Assembly: GCA_017549665.1 (NCBI GenBank)
Contig: JAFYUD010000232.1
Location: forward strand, 1-13,044
Direction of reading: 5' to 3'
DNA: 13,044 bases
Source: Clostridia bacterium
GTDB lineage: Bacteria; Bacillota_A; Clostridia; Oscillospirales; Acutalibacteraceae
Positions 1 to 8,367 of the stretch are shown here, piece after piece (the first letter of the stretch is position 1; each line of letters opens with the position of its first letter). The translations under genes and the position numbers were made by a program. The notes beneath the pieces are model-generated. The model was given only the letters and a program-made list of their open reading frames with translations, was not told the DNA's origin and searched no databases.

Positions 1-1207
1 TGAAATAACCGTCAAGTGAGAAATATTTGAGGATGTCATTCATCCAGCCCATATTCCACTTGAAGTTGAAGCCGAGTCCTCCCACAGCGGTAGGCTTTGT
101 GACAAGAGGCCATGCTGTGCTTTCTTCAGCAATAACAAGCACTTCGGGATGCTCACGGAAAACGATTTCATTGAGCTTTCTCAGGAATGCAACTGCTTCG
201 AGATTTTCTCTGCCGCCTTTTTCGTTGGCAACCCACTGCCCGTTATCCCTGCCGTAGTCAAGGTAGAGCATGGATGCAACCGCATCAACACGAAGACCGT
301 CAATGTGATATTCCTTCAGCCAGAATTCAGCGCTTGAAAGAAGAAAGCTTCTGACTTCATTTCTGCCGTAATCGAAAATGCGTGTACCCCACTGGTAATG
401 CTCGCCCTTTCTGGGGTCAGCATACTCGTAACAGGGTGTGCCGTCAAATTCATAAAGCCCCATTGCATCCTTGGGAAAATGAGCAGGCACCCAGTCAAGA
501 ATAACACCGATGCCGTTTTTGTGACACTCATTGATAAGATAAGCAAAATCTGCAGGTGTACCGTAACGTGATGTGGGAGCAAAATATCCTGTTACCTGAT
601 AACCCCATGAGCCGTCAAAGGGATATTCCGTAAGGGGAAGAAACTCAATGTGAGTATATCCCATTTCCTTGACATAAGGAATAATGGAATCAGCAAGGTC
701 ACGGTATGAATAGAAATTACCGTCATCGTGCTGTCTCCATGAGCCTGCGTGCACTTCATAGATATTGACGGGTGAAGCATACACCGAGCGCTGACGCTTT
801 GCAGACTGCCATGCATCATCATCCCATTCAAAAGCACCGATATCATAAATCTTTGATGCTGTGCCGGGTCTTGTTTCGGTATGGAAGCCGTAGGGGTCAG
901 CCTTCATGCACAGCTTTCCGTTTTTGCCCGTTACCGCATACTTATATGTGTCGTAATTCTTAAGACCTGATACTGTAGCCTCCCATATAGCACCGCCGTC
1001 TATACGTGTCATGGGATTTGCATCAGCACTCCAGCCGTTAAAATCACCCGAAACAGCCACACTCTGAGCATTGGGTGCCCACACACGGAATACAACATCA
1101 CCGTTATCCTTCCTGTGTGCACCTAAAAACTCATAAGCACGTGCGTTACTGCCCTCATGGAAGAGATACATCGGTACGTGGTATTCATCTCTGATTTTAT
1201 TCTCCAT
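1..1207 (-). CDS. glgB: 1,4-alpha-glucan branching enzyme GlgB, N-terminal 402 codons (partial)
   Basis: Branching enzyme of glycogen synthesis: it cuts alpha-1,4-glucan chains and re-attaches them as alpha-1,6 branches in the cytoplasm. Only the first 402 codons are present; the frame is open at the left edge, and family members are usually 630-730 residues. The N-terminal CBM48-like module shows [17 protein letters not shown] near residues 43-59. The GH13 barrel follows, with [10 protein letters not shown] (region I), [11 protein letters not shown] with nucleophile D308, and VIAEEST with acid/base E361. The 53-residue spacing between these two equals that in E. coli GlgB (D405/E458). The region carrying the HDEV motif lies outside the window. 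ATG at 1205-1207 is preceded by GGAG eight bases away; a GTG directly before it (1208-1210) is an alternative start. A clear promoter lies 39 bases upstream and a terminator separates it from the phage operon, so it is an independent transcription unit. Confidence 0.96.
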
Positions 1208-1245
1208 CACGGCAACTCCTTCTGTGTCTAAAGTCATATATAGTT

Positions 1246-1378: not shown

Positions 1379-1417
1379 AAAAAAATCTGAGGACCTCCTT
1401 TTTCAAGGAAGCCCCCC
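1379..1417 (-). terminator. Intrinsic terminator closing the phage head operon
   Basis: On the minus strand a 12-pair stem (1405-1416 with 1389-1400, including a few G-T pairs) closes a GAAA tetraloop. It is followed three bases later by seven T residues (1379-1385). It begins six bases after the stop codon of the last head gene and stops transcription before the glgB promoter. Confidence 0.85.
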
Positions 1418-1422
1418 GTATA

Positions 1423-1869
1423 TTATTCAAAAACGAACGGCTCAGGATAATCCGTACCCTTATAAAGCGTTTCCGTAACAGTGAAAATCAGATTCATAAA
1501 AAGTGAATCAGGATTGCGCACATACACGGTTTCCGTTGCTGTGATTTTACTTATTTCAAGCGATGTATTAAAAAGCAGCTGGTCGGCAATTCTTGAAAGA
1601 ATATAATTGCAATAAGCACCGCCTTTATTCAGAGGCACATATATACCAACTGAAAATTCTTCATTCACCTTACGGCTTTCAGACTCAGGCAGAACAATTT
1701 CATCAGACTGAGTTTCTATACCGTTAAGTCCGAAAACAACAACAGGCTTCATAAGAGGTGTTTCCTTCACCTGCGAAGGGAACTGCGTACAGAATGAGCA
1801 GTCGGAAAATTCATACATATCAGAAAACCACTCGCACAATCTGTCAGGCAATGATGTTATATATGACAT
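1423..1869 (-). CDS. Phage-type head completion/tail-terminator-like protein (last gene of head operon)
   Basis: A 148-residue protein with no motif I can assign with certainty. Size, position as third small gene after the major capsid protein, and mixed alpha/beta composition with alternating hydrophobic stretches fit the tail-completion or tail-terminator proteins that sit on the head-tail interface of siphophages and myophages. That role is inferred from gene order only. The N-terminal part has three closely spaced cysteines (CEW, CSFC). ATG at 1867-1869 has a strong AAGGAGGG site seven bases upstream. It follows the preceding gene by 12 bases and ends six bases before a strong terminator. 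No tail gene follows, which is unusual, because this protein would normally be the bridge to the tail module. Confidence 0.7.
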   Translation of the reverse strand: MSYITSLPDRLCEWFSDMYEFSDCSFCTQFPSQVKETPLMKPVVVFGLNGIETQSDEIVLPESESRKVNEEFSVGIYVPLNKGGAYCNYILSRIADQLLFNTSLEISKITATETVYVRNPDSLFMNLIFTVTETLYKGTDYPEPFVFE

Positions 1870-1881
1870 ATCTGTCCCTCC

Positions 1882-2244
1882 TTATCTGAAATGATTATAG
1901 ACAGGATAGCTGTCATCATTTTTCTCTCTGAGCACCGCCCAGACATACAGAACATCTGAGCCGAAATATATTTCATCACATCGGTCAACATGATAATGTC
2001 TGTTGCCTGCAACTATATATCCGTACTCCCCCATTGCAGTTTTGTCAAACCACGGTGGCGCAATGAGAAGACAATATCCCGAGTGGTCAAAACCGATATC
2101 CGTAGGCGTATCCTGCATATACATCTTATTTTTATATCTCAGAGGCTGAATAAAGCAGTTCATTTTCTGCACCACCTTACCACGCACATCGCACACATCT
2201 ACACTTCTGCCGTAGCGGTTTATATATTTCTCCGTATAAAGCAT
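1882..2244 (-). CDS. Probable phage head-closure/connector protein
   Basis: A 120-residue protein rich in tyrosine and aromatic residues, with no recognised catalytic motif. It begins MLYTEKYINRYGRSVDV and has a beta-rich middle. In the canonical order (capsid, adaptor, head-closure or stopper, tail completion) it falls in the stopper slot, so a role in sealing the portal channel after packaging is a reasonable guess but is positional inference. ATG at 2242-2244 has the ribosome site GAGGTGATGT directly upstream. It starts eight bases after the previous gene and ends 12 bases before the next, consistent with one polycistronic message. Confidence 0.7.
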   Translation of the reverse strand: MLYTEKYINRYGRSVDVCDVRGKVVQKMNCFIQPLRYKNKMYMQDTPTDIGFDHSGYCLLIAPPWFDKTAMGEYGYIVAGNRHYHVDRCDEIYFGSDVLYVWAVLREKNDDSYPVYNHFR

Positions 2245-2252
2245 ACATCACC

Positions 2253-2615
2253 TCATATTGCAGCAAATATAAATGCCGTATCAATCAGAAGCTCACGCAC
2301 ATCCGAAAGTGTTTCCCTGCAGAATTGCTCTGCTCTTTTCATTGCCGCATTGCTGTCCTTTCTGACGGTAACGTCACCTGCCTTGAGTGAAACCATATCG
2401 GCATCCTCATCGCACAATGCCTGAAGATATCTGAAACGGGCAAGGGCAGCAGTTGCGAGAATAAGCCTTCTGTCTGACGCATCGGCATCAGGCTTCAATC
2501 TGTGATTCATCGTAGCAACAGCCGCCTCACAGAAAAATCTCAGCTTCTCTGACGACTGCTCATCGGCAGAAACAAGCTCTGCCGTCTGAGCAAAAACATC
2601 ATCAAATGAAATCAT
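2253..2615 (-). CDS. Probable phage head-tail connector (adaptor, gp6-like)
   Basis: A 120-residue protein that looks almost entirely alpha-helical, with LILATAALARFRYLQAL near the middle and AMKRAEQFCRETLSDVRELL near the end. All-helical proteins of this size directly after the major capsid gene are typically adaptors that dock under the portal ring (HK97 gp6-like). I infer the role from size, helicity and position. Its ATG overlaps the capsid stop as TGATG, so translation is probably coupled. An AAAGGTG site lies 13 bases upstream inside the capsid gene. Confidence 0.72.
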   Translation of the reverse strand: MISFDDVFAQTAELVSADEQSSEKLRFFCEAAVATMNHRLKPDADASDRRLILATAALARFRYLQALCDEDADMVSLKAGDVTVRKDSNAAMKRAEQFCRETLSDVRELLIDTAFIFAAI

Positions 2616-3628
2616 CAGAGTGAAAGCACCTTTGTTGCGTCAGGGAAGATTTTTGAAAATCCTGCAGTGCATGTGACTGCAGCTCTTTCAAGCTGTCTGT
2701 CAATAAGCTTGTCATACTCGGTAACAATACCGCCTGCCTCCACAAGCTCAAGAGCACATGACTTGTCGAGACCTACAAGCATATCAGAAGGTGCATCTGC
2801 ACAGCGCACAAGTGATGCACCGAGAGGTGTGATCATTTTGCCCGTACCGTGGAAATTGAGACCTGCCGCAGAATCCTTGAACTCGGGAATATTCATAAGC
2901 TTTTCTGTCATATCCTTTGAGGCAACGATTGTAGACAAGTCATAGGGTGAAAAGCTGTTCCAGAATTTAATAAGATCTGAGTATGAAAGCTCCCCTGCAT
3001 TTGCTGCAGCGATAATTTCAGCAGCGTTATTGTTGCCGTCACCGTTGATAAGCACATCAACAGCATCCTTAAGCTGACTTCTTGCAATATAAAGACCGAT
3101 CTGTCTGAGAGTGACAGTAAAAAGATCAAGATGCTGATATCTGATTGCCTCGTAAGAAGAAACAAGCATTCTTCCTCTCTTGTGAAGAGTTACAAGATTT
3201 TCCTGAGTTCTGATTGTGGTCTGAGGAATTGAAGCACCCTCTGCAACAACCTTAAGCTCCTTATCATCTGTTGAAGGAACAGATGTGATTGAACGGTAAT
3301 CAAGACCGCTGATACGTGTTGTGGAAGCAACAAGACCGCTGAGCACATCAGCCTCCTCCATACCCTGTCTCACTGCACGTGAAATATATTCAGGGAAAAG
3401 AGCCGCTGAATCTGTAGTCTGAAAAAACTTGTCCACAACATCAGAGCCTTTACCGCTTACTCTGATATCAAATCTTTTGAGCTGACGCTGAAATGCATCG
3501 AGGTTTTCAAGAGGAGTGCCTTTATAGTTTTCCGAAGGGTCAAGCTCTTCAAGAGTTGCAGTGAATCCCTTTGAAGATGCATACATACCTTTTTCAAGCC
3601 TGATATTATCAAAATTTGCCATTGTCAT
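2615..3628 (-). CDS. Phage major capsid protein (HK97-fold type)
   Basis: A 337-residue shell protein, the structural subunit of the icosahedral head. Recognisable features are an N-terminal arm, the central stretch LVTLHKRGRMLVSSYEAIRY followed by a long amphipathic helix (LDLFTVTLRQIGLYIARSQLKDAVDVLINGDG), and an ALELVEAGGIVTEYDKLIDRQ beta region near the C-terminus. Together these fit HK97-fold capsid proteins. There is no long scaffold-like N-terminal delta domain, so scaffolding may come from the protease C-terminus. ATG at 3626-3628 has AAAGGA four to five bases upstream; an in-frame ATG two codons later is possible. It is preceded by the decoration protein and overlaps the next start by one base. 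The frame is intact, with no sign of decay. Confidence 0.88.
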   Translation of the reverse strand: MTMANFDNIRLEKGMYASSKGFTATLEELDPSENYKGTPLENLDAFQRQLKRFDIRVSGKGSDVVDKFFQTTDSAALFPEYISRAVRQGMEEADVLSGLVASTTRISGLDYRSITSVPSTDDKELKVVAEGASIPQTTIRTQENLVTLHKRGRMLVSSYEAIRYQHLDLFTVTLRQIGLYIARSQLKDAVDVLINGDGNNNAAEIIAAANAGELSYSDLIKFWNSFSPYDLSTIVASKDMTEKLMNIPEFKDSAAGLNFHGTGKMITPLGASLVRCADAPSDMLVGLDKSCALELVEAGGIVTEYDKLIDRQLERAAVTCTAGFSKIFPDATKVLSL

Positions 3629-3646
3629 ATCATCCTTTCTGTTTTA

Positions 3647-3988
3647 TCAGAGTATAATTCCGACTTTTTTATTTTCTGTATCAATGTCAGTTACGATATA
3701 CTGTCTGCCTGAATCCGCAACACGCACACCGCCGTTACCGTCAGCAACAAGACCATTAAGACCTGCTGAGGGAATACTGCCCGAATATGTAAACTGAACA
3801 TATCCGTCAAGCTGCACGCAGGCATATTCACCCTTTGAATTGAGCATGCAACCGATGAAGTCCTCACCGTCTTCACAGGCTCTGACAGTCATCGATGAGT
3901 GCATACTGACAGGAATACCCTTTTCTGCAACACCTGACAGACAGAATGTTGCCGCATTTTCGCCGTAACCTTTAAGTGTAGTTTTCAT
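3647..3988 (-). CDS. Small capsid decoration/stabilisation protein
   Basis: A 113-residue, beta-rich, glycine-rich protein (KGYGENAATF at the start, LDGYVQFTYSG in the middle, LVADGNGGVRVADSGRQYIVTDID near the end). It resembles the small trimeric decoration or DUF2190-type proteins encoded beside phage capsid genes, which clamp the mature shell against internal DNA pressure. The family call is by resemblance and gene position between protease and capsid. ATG at 3986-3988 has GAAAGGA upstream at usual spacing. It follows the protease by 20 bases and precedes the capsid gene by 18 bases. A dedicated decoration protein suggests the head is expected to withstand full DNA packaging, unlike an empty nanocompartment. 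Confidence 0.78.
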   Translation of the reverse strand: MKTTLKGYGENAATFCLSGVAEKGIPVSMHSSMTVRACEDGEDFIGCMLNSKGEYACVQLDGYVQFTYSGSIPSAGLNGLVADGNGGVRVADSGRQYIVTDIDTENKKVGIIL

Positions 3989-4008
3989 TTTTATCGTCCT
4001 TTCTGTTT

Positions 4009-5016
4009 TCAGATTCTGAACTGTGAATTGTCATTGAAATTTTTGATTGTTTCCGCACTCAGGTCGGGGCTGAAGGCATTGACATCCTCAGCCTTTAAAT
4101 TCAAAGCCTTTCTGAGCATGAAGATTTCTTCATTATCAAGCTTTCCGAGAATCCCCTTTAGTACGGATGTATCAGCATCGGGCAGTACAAATGCCGCAAG
4201 TGATACAATTTCATTATGTGCTTCGTTTCTCGCTTCTCTTCCCGAGCCGGCATCTGATTCCATAGCTGCCACATATCTTGCAACAGCCTTCATCTGTGAT
4301 ACACTGAGCACAATATCATTTCCGGCGGATGAAACCGACTTAAGAATCTCCGTCGGGTCATCGGAATCAATTTCCACCGCTTTGCTTTTCAGCTTTGCAT
4401 TTTTTGAAACACCTGCATTTTTCTGAGCAGGCACAGCAACAAAAGACCATTCGTAAGCATCCGTGGGGTCAGTAAGAATGGCATGACAGACTCTGCCGTC
4501 AATCATATCCCTCTGCACATGCGTACACTCATGGCTGCGCATATCATTTCCGCATACCGAGCAGATTTTTCTGCTGACACTGCAGCTGATGCTGACTTCT
4601 TTTTTAATACCTGCATCGATTTCCCTTATAAGCTCTGCATTTTTATCTGACCTGAGCATATAACACCATGCTTTCAGACAGGTATACACTTCACCGCAAG
4701 ATGTAATTCTGCCGTCAGCAACAACAACCTGAGTCCTGTACACTCTCGCAGTCTGATCGGAGCTTTTCATGCTGTGGTCAAAAATCCCCGTAACACCCTC
4801 AAACATGGGTGCAAGTGCATTGATGGCACTCAGGGAAAAACGCTCACAGTCACGATCAACCTCATTGTCACAGAGTGTCACCGTAAAAGTATATATATCC
4901 TCTGCGCTGAGCTTCTTACGGGTATAGCGTGAAATCAGCTCCAGGTCTTTTTCGTCGGGTGTTCCCGCTTCTGCAGCTGAATTTTCAGCGCTTTTTGAAA
5001 TTCTCATTTCGTCCAA
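4009..5016 (-). CDS. Prohead maturation protease with helical C-terminal (scaffold-like) extension
   Basis: A 335-residue protein whose N-terminal 200 residues look like an HK97-type (U35/S78) prohead protease, which trims capsid and scaffold during head maturation. Candidate catalytic residues are H81 (FDHS) and S142 (KEVSISC), followed by the family-typical DAYEWSFVAVPAQ (186-198). Between them is a cysteine/histidine-rich insertion (C152, C155, C164, H166, C177, H178) resembling a zinc-binding loop. Residues about 215-335 look helical and acidic and could act as a fused scaffold; that is inference. The best start is TTG at 5014-5016: AAAGGAG lies eight bases upstream, overlapping the end of the portal gene, while the next ATG is 17 bases from that site. 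It starts three bases after the portal stop. Confidence 0.8.
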   Translation of the reverse strand: MDEMRISKSAENSAAEAGTPDEKDLELISRYTRKKLSAEDIYTFTVTLCDNEVDRDCERFSLSAINALAPMFEGVTGIFDHSMKSSDQTARVYRTQVVVADGRITSCGEVYTCLKAWCYMLRSDKNAELIREIDAGIKKEVSISCSVSRKICSVCGNDMRSHECTHVQRDMIDGRVCHAILTDPTDAYEWSFVAVPAQKNAGVSKNAKLKSKAVEIDSDDPTEILKSVSSAGNDIVLSVSQMKAVARYVAAMESDAGSGREARNEAHNEIVSLAAFVLPDADTSVLKGILGKLDNEEIFMLRKALNLKAEDVNAFSPDLSAETIKNFNDNSQFRI

Positions 5017-5019
5017 GAA

Positions 5020-6180
5020 TTATTCTCCTTTCTGAGCCTCGGCACGGAGCTTCTCCGCCTGAGCATTATAATAATTAGCCTTTGCCTGCTGAGTTTCATC
5101 AAGCAAAGATATATCATCCCATACAACGGTACAGCCTGAGCTTATACCGTTCATTCTCAGAAACATTGTGCAGATTTTTGTAATAACGGGTGTGAGAATC
5201 CGTCTGTAGTGATATAATTCACCCGTCAGGATATCCGTCTGCTGCTGAGCCATTCTTTCTGTTGTTGACCAGTTGAGACCAAGCATGAAAGGCGGCAGAC
5301 CTGTCTTTGCAACAATCTGCTCCATCATCTGTCTGACGGGTATCTCACTGTCAAGAATCTGATTGTCAGCACCGATGACCCTGATATCAACATCACCTAC
5401 TGCAACAAAATCCCTGACCTCACCCGATGATTTCATCGCTTCGCTCCAACCCTTTGCAATCTGCATTGCCCTGTCCTTTGCGTAAGCCTTTTCCATGGCA
5501 TCATTCTGAGGTCTGTATGTAACTGCATATCTGAGATTACCAAGTCTCTCCCAGTTTGTGCCGATGGATTCAAAAATCTGAAGAAGCACCGCACTTACAA
5601 AGGGAAGACCTTTCAGCAGTGAATTGCCGTGAAGCTTTCCGGCATCAGGATCAAGCACTGAAAGAAGCAATGCCCCCTGATTTCTGACAGGTACTGCATC
5701 ACCTGCACCCGACAGACATACATCTATTTTCATGGGATTGTTTTTATTACGACGAAGCACAACATCATTAAGCTCACCGTTATAAAGTGAAATAGACCGT
5801 CTGTCTTTATTGAGTACCATTTCACCCACAGCAGTACCGTATGTAAGAAGCTGCGAAAGGTAAAGGTCTGCAAAGGACTGTACACCCTGCATATTGCCGC
5901 CAACGCAGACATTGGCAACAAAATCATCCAGCGCAGTCTGAATACTCTTATCATCAGCAACAACCGAAAAGCCTCCCGTCAGACGGACAATCTTTGAAAT
6001 AGCACAGTCAATTACGGGTACGGAATTTTTCAGATTTTCATAAAGCTGTCTTTCGGCAAAGAAGCTTTTCGTTTCACCTGAAGCTGCAAATTTTCTCTGC
6101 ACTGTCTGAGGCACACCCACGGCAGCAACCTCAGAATTATAAGTCTGTTTCTTTTTTCTTGAAGGTCTGATATTATTCAC
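5020..6180 (-). CDS. Phage portal protein
   Basis: A 386-residue protein in the portal slot directly after the large terminase. The portal is the dodecameric ring at one head vertex through which the terminase pumps DNA. Family-like features are the DLYLSQLLTYGTAVGEMVLN segment, a stem-like region, LPPFMLGLNWSTTERMAQQQ, and a long C-terminal helix (GELYHYRRILTPVITKICTMFL) ending in a charged, alanine-rich tail. It is somewhat shorter than many portals (400-550 residues) but appears complete. The start is GTG at 6178-6180, overlapping the terminase stop as GTGA; AAAGGA is only one or two bases upstream, too close for a normal site, so translation is probably coupled to the terminase. Confidence 0.85.
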   Translation of the reverse strand: MNNIRPSRKKKQTYNSEVAAVGVPQTVQRKFAASGETKSFFAERQLYENLKNSVPVIDCAISKIVRLTGGFSVVADDKSIQTALDDFVANVCVGGNMQGVQSFADLYLSQLLTYGTAVGEMVLNKDRRSISLYNGELNDVVLRRNKNNPMKIDVCLSGAGDAVPVRNQGALLLSVLDPDAGKLHGNSLLKGLPFVSAVLLQIFESIGTNWERLGNLRYAVTYRPQNDAMEKAYAKDRAMQIAKGWSEAMKSSGEVRDFVAVGDVDIRVIGADNQILDSEIPVRQMMEQIVAKTGLPPFMLGLNWSTTERMAQQQTDILTGELYHYRRILTPVITKICTMFLRMNGISSGCTVVWDDISLLDETQQAKANYYNAQAEKLRAEAQKGE

Positions 6181-7430
6181 TTCCTTTCTGCCGCAAGAAC
6201 GATAAACGGATCGTCACATCCGCCGTAAAGGACGGTTGACACAAAATACCGCATATCGTCCATTGCGTGATCATGTTCTTTTCTGGGGGTATCCTTCGCT
6301 GTACTCTGATCCCAGCGGTAAAGTCCGAATTCTCTTATAATGTCCTTACATGAAGCCGTGATTTTAAGTCTGCCGCATTTAAGAGCTTCGGAAACTCTTC
6401 TGATACCGTCGGCAACATCATTTTTTGCAGGAATAACCCTGAATCTTCCGTGACGGCGTATACATTCAATAAAGCTGACAGCAGACGGGTCAACAATGAC
6501 ACTTTCAATCTGTCTGTCACCTGCCAGAATTTCAAGCTGTTGGTAATATTCCTCATCAGTCTTCTGACTTCCTTCCTGCCTTGATGCCCAGTAATATTCA
6601 TCAACTCTGTACCACACGCCGTCTGAATACCCCCACAGACCGAGAGAAAATGGATTCACAGTGCCGTAGTCACATGAAATATAATATTCACTGCAACGGG
6701 GCACTTTATCGGTAACATGAGCATCATGCGAAAAGAACGGATACACAAGTCCTTCAGCAGCAACCCATTTTCCCTCAACAAACCTTTCATAGAACGCACC
6801 GCTGTAAAGCGAACGGTAACGTTCTATGATGGCACGGGAAAGGGAGGGATTATCCTCCATGACAAAATGCAGATATAGACAGTTTTTATCCTGAGCTTTC
6901 TCTATCCACTCCTTATGAAACCAGTGCAACGGATTTTCAGGATTACAGTTAAACCAGAGCTTTGAACCACCGAGCGAACATCTCGCAACAGCCTGTTCAA
7001 CAAATGAACGTGGCATAAGCGCAACCTCATCAAGCAGAACACCTCCGAGTGTGAGTCCCTGAATGAGTGATGCAGATGACTCATCTCTGCCGCCGAATAA
7101 ATAAAAACGGTTTTTAATTCTGCCGTATTCAATTTCTACAAGACTCTGTGAAATTTTCTCACGACAGGTAAAACCAAGGTCGGTAAGAACAGGCAGCAGC
7201 GGAGTAATGAGATTCCGCCTCAGCGACGTCACCGTCTTTCCGCACAACGCAAAAGACGTATCGTCAAAATTATTCATAGCCCATGCAACAAACGAAACAG
7301 ACATGCACAGCGTTTTTCCGCTTCTGACTGCGCCGTCGCATATAATGCCGTCAAAGTCACGAAGCTCACTGCTTCTGCACCACCAGTTGAGAACCGTCAG
7401 CTGTTTTGCAGAAAATGTACTGAACTTCAT
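6177..7430 (-). CDS. Phage terminase large subunit (ATPase and nuclease)
   Basis: A 417-residue DNA-packaging motor that hydrolyses ATP to translocate DNA into the prohead and cuts the concatemer. The N-terminal ATPase shows Walker A GAVRSGKT (33-40), Walker B VLLDE (131-135) with catalytic E135, and a coupling motif NCNPE (161-165). The C-terminal RNase H-like nuclease has D254 (CDYGTVNPF), D314 (VDPSA) and D387/D391 (HDHAMDDMRY). Every key residue I look for is present, so the enzyme should be active. It resembles the PBSX-type large terminases of Firmicutes phages. It overlaps the small subunit gene by four bases (ATGA) and the portal gene by four bases, as expected for a translationally coupled packaging operon. 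Confidence 0.95.
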   Translation of the reverse strand: MKFSTFSAKQLTVLNWWCRSSELRDFDGIICDGAVRSGKTLCMSVSFVAWAMNNFDDTSFALCGKTVTSLRRNLITPLLPVLTDLGFTCREKISQSLVEIEYGRIKNRFYLFGGRDESSASLIQGLTLGGVLLDEVALMPRSFVEQAVARCSLGGSKLWFNCNPENPLHWFHKEWIEKAQDKNCLYLHFVMEDNPSLSRAIIERYRSLYSGAFYERFVEGKWVAAEGLVYPFFSHDAHVTDKVPRCSEYYISCDYGTVNPFSLGLWGYSDGVWYRVDEYYWASRQEGSQKTDEEYYQQLEILAGDRQIESVIVDPSAVSFIECIRRHGRFRVIPAKNDVADGIRRVSEALKCGRLKITASCKDIIREFGLYRWDQSTAKDTPRKEHDHAMDDMRYFVSTVLYGGCDDPFIVLAAERK

Positions 7431-7906
7431 CCGTTATCACCCTGCTTCATCGCACTTTTTTCCAATGCCTCATAAAATGAAGCACAAGCAGCTTTTTCAG
7501 CAGTGTCAGACTCCGTTATATCACCGAGCTTTTCAAGTGCCTTGATACGGTCAAAAAATTTAATTTCTATTCCTCCGCCTTTCGGCTTCTTGATTTCAGC
7601 AACATTAAAAAGGTCAAGCTTTTCAGGGTCAATCTCCTGCCCCTCCTGACAGAGAATCAGCTTTACCGCATCTGCCGAGGAAGAGAATGCTATACGTCTG
7701 AGCCCCGCCTTTACTTCACTGAGCGTAACTGTCATCTCCTGAGAATACCTTTCAATCGTTTCCCTGATAAGATGTCTCGCAAGCAGTTTTCTTGAATTCA
7801 TTTCGGGACAGACCGTATAACCTGATTTCACAGCCGCTTCCCGTCCGTTACGGCAGTAAGCGTACATTCTGCAGAAAAGCTCTTCACGGGCGGTAAGTTT
7901 TTTCAT
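7427..7906 (-). CDS. Phage terminase small subunit
   Basis: A 159-residue DNA-recognition subunit that selects the DNA to be packaged and recruits the large terminase. The N-terminal LTAREELFCRMYAYCRNGREAAVKSGYT (residues 4-31) is typical of the Terminase_2 helix-turn-helix region, followed by a helical oligomerisation region and an acidic, lysine-containing C-terminal part. ATG at 7904-7906 has AAAGGA eight to nine bases upstream. This is the first gene of the head operon. The region upstream holds paired palindromes that may be operators or, as in some phages, recognition sites near the small terminase gene; that is inference. Confidence 0.9.
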   Translation of the reverse strand: MKKLTAREELFCRMYAYCRNGREAAVKSGYTVCPEMNSRKLLARHLIRETIERYSQEMTVTLSEVKAGLRRIAFSSSADAVKLILCQEGQEIDPEKLDLFNVAEIKKPKGGGIEIKFFDRIKALEKLGDITESDTAEKAACASFYEALEKSAMKQGDNG

Positions 7907-8142: not shown

Positions 8143-8367
8143 ATGCCTGAGTTTACTTATGAAATCGTGAAAACATTCGGCGTTATATCAGAAGGTGCCG
8201 GCGGTTGGGCAAAGGAGCTTAACCTTATCAGCTGGAACGGAAAAGAGCCCAAATACGATATCCGTGACTGGGGTCCCGATCACGAAAAAATGGGTAAGGG
8301 TGTTACTCTTACAGCTGCTGACGCAAAGGCACTCAAAGAGCTTCTTGCAGAAATCGATTTCGAATAA
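8143..8367 (+). CDS. ydbC: YdbC-family PC4-like single-stranded-DNA-binding protein
   Basis: A 74-residue protein matching the YdbC family of Firmicutes, which has the fold of the eukaryotic coactivator PC4 and whose Lactococcus member binds single-stranded DNA as a dimer. Recognisable segments are YEIVKTFGVISE (6-17), GWAKELNLISWNGKEPKYDIRDW (21-43), DHEKMGKGVTL (46-56) and a C-terminal helix ADAKALKELLAEI. The length is that of the family. ATG follows a strong GGGAGG site by seven bases, and the gene has its own promoter and terminator. It is transcribed away from the phage head operon and shares the 236-base control region with it. Its cellular job is not settled; replication, repair or transcription roles are possible. 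Whether it serves the head cassette is an open question. Confidence 0.93.
   Translation: MPEFTYEIVKTFGVISEGAGGWAKELNLISWNGKEPKYDIRDWGPDHEKMGKGVTLTAADAKALKELLAEIDFE

Follow-up and report, generated by a model that had tools for sequence, protein, structure and literature searches.

A phage head and packaging cassette in a Clostridia chromosome as a probable domesticated, gene transfer agent-like module

The head operon and its chromosomal site

We analyzed a 13,044-nucleotide contig from a Clostridia bacterium (JAFYUD010000232.1, assembly GCA_017549665.1; hereafter the window), which carries on its minus strand, at positions 1423-7906, nine open frames in phage head order, none of them interrupted. 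We consider it fairly likely that this cassette is a domesticated phage head and packaging module resembling a gene transfer agent (GTA), vertically inherited within its order of Clostridia and reduced here to head and neck.

Families were assigned by Pfam and PHROG profile searches of the window proteins. The small terminase subunit, TerS (7427-7906; 159 amino acids), matched PF03592 (2.7e-13, profile positions 1-129 of 141) and phrog_51, and the large subunit, TerL (6177-7430; 417 amino acids), matched PF03237 (3.3e-13) and phrog_2 (7e-45), with its ATPase and nuclease residues present. They are followed by a portal protein (5020-6180; 386 amino acids; phrog_30703, 1e-125), whose Pfam portal match fell under its cut-off, a head protease/scaffold-like protein (4009-5016; 335 amino acids; phrog_16951, 2e-94), a decoration-like virion protein (3647-3988; 113 amino acids; phrog_4588, 2e-27), and the major capsid protein (2615-3628; 337 amino acids; PF25209, 6.5e-17; phrog_3922, 5e-104). 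Three small connectors complete the operon: cn1 (2253-2615) and cn2 (1882-2244), open frames of 120 amino acids each that are conserved in relatives and are adaptor-like and stopper-like by position, and cn3 (1423-1869; 148 amino acids). None of the three gave a significant family match in Pfam or PHROG. The AlphaFold model of cn3, made from an alignment of 36 sequences and with a mean predicted local distance difference test (pLDDT) score of 75.9, matched the Milano neck, the collars of pyocin R2 and diffocin, and lambda gpU among PDB structures searched with Foldseek. Hence cn3 is predicted to have a tail-terminator/neck fold, in a short form without a fibre-like domain. An intrinsic terminator (1389-1416, minus strand; dG -22.5 kcal/mol, z -3.86), composed of a 12-pair hairpin and a T run, lies 3' of the last gene and closes the operon.

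An initial annotation of this DNA had described nine uninterrupted genes in head order, intact catalytic residues in the large terminase, and a terminator at the end of the unit. The open-frame check and the hairpin agree with the first and the last of these claims. As for the second, the Walker A, Walker B, and nuclease residues of TerL were kept in all of the 148 to 150 sequences covering each column, the sole variation being a Walker A Thr to Ser exchange in 6 sequences. Profiles upheld the identities given for the terminases, portal, decoration, and capsid proteins; the protease belongs to a family of unknown function and takes its role from position, and cn1 and cn2 have no family match. 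Starts had been said to overlap by 1-4 bases, which is true of three of the eight junctions (4, 4, and 1 bases), the remaining ones being gapped by 3 to 20 bases.

Pfam also agreed with the annotation that chromosomal genes lie on both sides. Downstream is glgB, encoding the glycogen branching enzyme (2-1237, minus strand; PF22019, PF02922), truncated at the window edge; the divergent upstream neighbor is a PC4/YdbC-like gene (8143-8367, plus strand; PF02229, 7e-11), and the flank on that side also holds a sodium:solute symporter, named putP in the annotation, together with TetR, MerR, and deaminase genes. As had been claimed, the window has no tail genes, and the genes scanned in its 13 kb included no recognizable integrase, replication, or lysis gene.

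The interval between glgB and ydbC was compared across relatives, as the annotation had proposed. Six of the seven nearest relatives mapped (loci L002, L003, L004, L006, L007, and L215; L005 is the exception) have the YdbC-like gene upstream of the cassette, and the gene immediately downstream is glgB in L007, whose genes were identified by Pfam, and in the more distant L031. In L002 and L220, glgB is instead upstream of the cassette, and local rearrangements must therefore have happened; glg genes were inside the fetched flank in 17 of 160 loci. Close relatives thus keep the cassette at the same ydbC/glgB site, and no complete prophage was found there in those mapped.

Besides glg, several separate lineages (L017, L019, L022, L042, L047, L052, L054, L074, L195, L197, L198, and L200) have a second recurrent neighbor, an antisense pair of ABC-transporter genes (PF00664/PF00005) immediately upstream of the cassette, to which some loci add a MarR regulator.

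Distribution, inheritance, and selection

Capsid searches showed that the cassette is not confined to a single strain, a possibility that the annotation had raised. In a protein collection, all 8000 candidates scored were relatives, the best of them at 95-100% identity and from several contigs. Species genomes contained at least 571 stretches encoding the capsid (best 80 kept), with matches named Clostridia, Clostridiales, Ruminococcaceae, Oscillospiraceae, and Ruminococcus, many of them from ruminant or human gut; these host group names are based only on protein names or on the titles of records. The carrier of the window's cassette is probably a gut bacterium. At least 332 encoding stretches were present in IMG/VR (80 kept).

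Within the family to which the L004 genome belongs, the capsid matched in 94 of 150 genomes, each time in single copy and with zero internal stops, one match being clipped at a contig end. An order-wide sample, which overlaps with the former, gave matches in 43 of 295 genomes, again one copy each and no stops. In a second family, reached via a Ruminococcus-like genome and named 'Ruminococcus sp.', 112 of 247 genomes matched, including eight weakly (E 9e-19 to 6e-4), five with two matches (mostly fragments), and three with one TAG. Six of the eight weak genomes yielded five loci without this capsid (four genomes) and two loci with a partial head set (the other two). A search with a Ruminococcus-type capsid profile returned Ruminococcus sp. 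and Oscillospiraceae names, and no Faecalibacterium, among the 120 matches listed.

There was no near match to the cassette in a plasmid collection. Among phage records, TerL matched 1297 and the portal only 6: a Microcystis phage (28% identity) and five faecal 'Bacteriophage sp.' contigs that carry no annotation. This phage collection therefore holds no isolated phage that is a close relative. No description of this cassette family was found in the open-licence literature searched.

The history of the cassette follows that of its hosts. For 58 genomes, the rpoB tree and the tree of TerL, portal, and capsid were correlated (Mantel r 0.736, with 0 of 5000 permutations as high) and shared 31 of 55 splits, compared with a mean of 0.27 and a maximum of 3 in 500 shuffles; of 29 strongly supported rpoB splits, the cassette tree recovered 23. 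Cassette GC content tracked flank GC content (r 0.94, 123 loci) over flanks ranging from 31 to 66% GC, the cassette averaging 3 points higher. The cassette is inherited near-vertically, as a single host-like copy, and its retention by relatives over deep evolutionary time suggests that cells use it.

We also compared nonsynonymous and synonymous substitution rates (dN/dS). Between the window and L002-L007, a comparison in which many pairs have high or saturated dS, dN/dS was 0.06-0.10 for TerL, 0.08-0.15 for the capsid, and 0.09-0.23 for the portal, next to 0.08-0.10 for glgB; the decoration protein and the connectors were looser (0.2-0.5). Two close head-only pairs gave similarly low values for most genes: 0.105 for TerL, 0.016 for the capsid, 0.071 for the portal, and 0.106 for the fused neck protein described below in L037-L032, and 0.026 for TerL, 0.036 for cn2, and 0.024 for cn3 in L052-L054, with 0.252 for the capsid and 0.286 for TerS. 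Over all head-only pairs with dS of 0.1-1, cn3 had the lowest median (0.02, one pair) and cn2 the highest (0.39). Baseplate-type loci gave medians near or above 1 for cn2, cn3, and the wedge protein; we read the high values of small proteins, by assumption, as saturation and misalignment. Selection on the cassette is mostly purifying, and the relaxed selection that the annotation had considered was not seen in TerL and capsid, whose dN/dS resembles that of glgB.

Tail reduction and the head-only clade

Loci were scanned with profiles made from these same loci (six-frame open reading frames); the profiles are also the basis for the tube, cn2, cn3, and fus labels. The tube and cn2 labels come from one single-linkage cluster and are thus not cleanly separated; fus also falls on some short connectors, and long and short forms were therefore counted by length. 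Among 92 loci (91 of the 94 in the family plus the window), 4 had sheath and baseplate, 48 had a baseplate without sheath, and 1 was partial. Head-only loci numbered 29 where the downstream sequence exceeded 6.5 kb and 10, the window included, close to a contig end. In the window glgB comes directly after the cassette, which makes the window head-only at this site as well. TerS, TerL, portal, protease, capsid, and cn1, the six core labels, were all present in 90 of the 92 loci; L210 lacked TerS and TerL, and the 4 kb contig L270 lacked four labels.

In relatives, Pfam confirmed the sheath (PF04984, PF17482), BaseplateJ (PF04865), Gp48 (PF10076), and LysM (PF01476) proteins, and a sheath-initiator match was just under the Pfam cut-off. 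The LysM gene lies a median of 3.8 kb from the capsid end in the 14 loci that have a sheath and 1.6 kb from it in the 67 that do not. At the place before the LysM gene where a tape measure is expected, the sheath-type locus L209 encodes a protein of 96 amino acids (13442-13729), and the sheath-less L036 (12503-12661), L195, L203, and L205 encode proteins of 41-52 amino acids. The tiny protein is possibly the vestigial tape measure of a tail of near-zero length, and an ancestor without an ordinary tape measure would have been able to build only a very short tail. The short proteins share a recurring ...E.L..D.RRY-like stretch. Eleven of 20 further loci drawn from the 43 order-wide matches had a sheath. 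Taken together, the relatives form a reduction series from a short contractile tail without ordinary tape measure, through a baseplate only, to a head only.

A second reduced lineage was seen in 'Ruminococcus sp.' (L343-L348, L361, L362, L367, L372, and L373), where the head set is accompanied by only one or two baseplate labels, the hub and sometimes LysM; capsid and protease stand in a changed order in L345 and L367.

In a FastTree phylogeny of 149 loci, the window fell in a 53-member clade (Shimodaira-Hasegawa-like support 0.845) with 41 head-only loci, 12 at contig edges, and none with a baseplate; other head-only lineages in this tree arose separately. The clade comprises two sub-clades. 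In the sister sub-clade (34 loci), the last connector was long, at 272-357 amino acids from stop to stop, in 30 of the 30 loci where it is visible. In the window's own sub-clade (19 loci), it was short wherever complete; that of L042 measures 252 amino acids stop to stop, the gene itself encoding about 160. By length, 66 head-only loci comprised 34 with the long form, 27 with the short form, and 5 with none recognized.

The final approximately 120 residues of the long connector align with the terminal fibre-like gene of the baseplate clusters, and for this reason a fibre domain appears to have moved onto the neck protein during tail loss. AlphaFold modeled the fibre-like domain of the fused protein with pLDDT >90 over most of its length. 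Foldseek found no confident PDB fold for it; in the fused protein, confident matches were confined to the neck half, which resembles tail terminators. We searched for the domain elsewhere in 16 genomes of the window's sub-clade; it was not found in 15, the sixteenth gave a match at E 0.005, and both positive controls matched. We tentatively propose a stepwise reduction, in which a contractile-tailed ancestor without ordinary tape measure gave rise to a widespread tail-less, head-only transfer agent of gut Clostridia, with the sister lineage fixing a receptor-binding-like domain on the neck and the window's lineage dropping it.

Interpretation and rival explanations

The closest described counterpart is FpGTA of Faecalibacterium (Borodovich et al. 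2026; PMC12946183). According to that report, short host fragments are packaged in gut Ruminococcaceae and Oscillospiraceae, at 8.4-8.9 kb in Faecalibacterium and Gemmiger and at 4.6 kb in Ruminococcus callidus; the FpGTA particles measure 40 nm, look tail-less, and contain about 9 kb of host DNA. FpGTA I is described there as 10.5 kb with ten open reading frames, its capsid being RCH50849.1 and its portal RCH50851.1, and a second operon (baseplate, fibre, and lysis) occurs in part of the strains, the head operon alone being detected in seven of twelve; the TerS is said to be without a DNA-binding domain (PMC12946183). Compared by description only, the window's cassette is likewise a chromosomal single-locus head operon (TerS, TerL, portal, scaffold, and capsid) in related gut families; unlike FpGTA I, it holds nine genes in 6.5 kb. 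The same report gives a candidate packaging operon for Faecalibacterium only (PMC12946183), and the present family offers a concrete single-copy packaging candidate in many related genomes, some of them named Ruminococcus.

As in a GTA, the window holds an intact chromosomal structural and packaging cluster in which no replication or integration genes were recognized, with vertical inheritance and purifying selection. Among the examples offered by the annotation, a domesticated packaging particle or GTA-like module fits best. Cells probably use the cassette for packaging stretches of their own DNA and passing them on. We infer host DNA as the cargo from the gene content and from the reported short-fragment packaging in gut Ruminococcaceae and Oscillospiraceae, and delivery is likewise conjectural. 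Some cells would express the operon, and capsid, scaffold/protease, and portal would assemble a small procapsid, which the terminase would fill with a head-limited piece of cell DNA. The connectors cn1-cn3 would then close the neck, and the particles would exit by lysis encoded elsewhere. Delivery would proceed without a tail; the obvious candidate for this step would be the fibre domain carried on the neck of the fused lineage, and no candidate is visible in the lineage of the window.

Several observations weigh against this interpretation. Classical GTAs possess a tail or other delivery device; none is in the window, and none was found in most head-only relatives searched. The window's sub-clade is without even the fused fibre-like domain, and thus without a visible recipient-binding device, and neither a lysis gene nor the fibre domain was seen for it. 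The N-terminal part of the Terminase_2 profile, which we take to be the DNA-binding domain, is not visibly lost from the window's TerS, unlike the FpGTA TerS as described. No capsid match was obtained in 56 of the 150 family genomes and 252 of the 295 order genomes, so the cassette is dispensable or often lost, although draft gaps contribute. There are possible signs of decay: L210 (genome G141) has no TerS or TerL label and yet has the baseplate set, in L371 (G525) protease and capsid are the sole head labels between those of ABC transporters, and the capsid matches of three second-family genomes (G485, G489, and G540) contain one in-frame TAG, which may reflect decay, an assembly error, or recoding. 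Finally, the cassette tree contradicts two strong rpoB splits, the small cassette proteins evolve faster, and single cn1 and fused-neck head-only pairs have dN/dS >1.

The absence of a visible delivery device suits a domesticated head with a non-transfer role, packing DNA or other cargo that it never delivers, for instance in DNA disposal, in a stress response, or as a decoy or killing particle. There is a precedent in PBSX, a defective prophage of Bacillus, which is discussed as a particle with packaged DNA that it does not inject (PMC12946183). Nevertheless, the sister sub-clade kept a fibre-like domain through the neck fusion, suggesting that target binding mattered, and terminase, portal, and neck are all kept. 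We regard this role as unlikely.

Less likely still are GTA heads completed by tails from another locus or a resident prophage. The idea, one of those in the annotation, draws on FpGTA, whose baseplate and lysis genes are reported to lie in a second, distant operon (PMC12946183), and on cn3, which as a modeled tail-terminator-like protein would fit a tail. Unlinked tail modules were searched for in mostly fragmentary draft genomes of relatives, with completeness unknown and profile reach limited; the window strain is known from its contig only. The family BaseplateJ profile had no match in 47 of 49 genomes without a linked baseplate (41 with enough downstream sequence and 8 near a contig end), the control genome being matched, and hence no second baseplate locus related to this family was seen in these 47. 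The PF10145 tape measure was absent in 27 of 32 head-only genomes. On these two counts borrowed tails look unlikely, and this claim of the annotation is weakened. Among 14 further genomes carrying reduced cassettes, 4 had BaseplateJ elsewhere, at least 2 of them inside prophage-like regions; the distant baseplate loci L381 and L382 were rejected as second operons, as other tail genes are present and they look like ordinary prophages.

We give very little credence to a decaying prophage whose head module was left by chance. Tail, lysis, integration, and replication genes have indeed been lost, and L371 and L210 are reduced further, but the nine genes are intact, all 94 family capsids are stop-free and single-copy, dN/dS is low, the cassette and host trees are congruent, and the same head set persists across the 53-member clade. 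Presence in many genomes, the lack of a complete prophage at the site in the close relatives mapped, and purifying selection instead support the view of the annotation that a head-only cassette has been kept by selection rather than caught in decay. Capsid-forming phage-inducible chromosomal islands (cf-PICIs) have their own heads and packaging and no tail genes, as does the window, but a fixed satellite of this kind using helper phage tails is the least credible reading, and a weakened one, because no integrase and no island regulatory or replication gene was recognized within the 13 kb, the cassette is a near-vertically inherited single copy at a shared site, and few carriers show a tailed-phage tape measure.

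Two further systems invite comparison with the GTA-like module favored here. RcGTA and related alphaproteobacterial GTAs are vertically inherited, single-copy, intact phage structural clusters without replication genes, all features that the cassette shares; RcGTA has a siphovirus-like tail, unlike this contractile-type family and the tail-less lineage of the window. PBSX-type defective prophages package host DNA, and PBSX is a killing particle with a full tail, lysis genes, and a contractile tail module in the gene order XkdK-XkdU. Like PBSX, the cassette is a fixed chromosomal element, and the contractile module of its relatives has a similar gene order; unlike PBSX, the window has no tail or lysis genes. 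Because the relatives range naturally from a short contractile tail, through a baseplate, to a bare head, one can ask directly which particle part gene transfer needs.

Because a viral catalogue holds the capsid gene in at least 332 contigs, it may count some host genes as viruses, and chromosomal cassettes may have been filed as such. The IMG/VR loci L082-L161 are the same cassettes stored as viral contigs, many of about 10-14 kb. Similarly, L001 (MT835508.1), a 46.7 kb faecal 'Bacteriophage sp.' record, has the same neighboring genes as the chromosomal locus L047.

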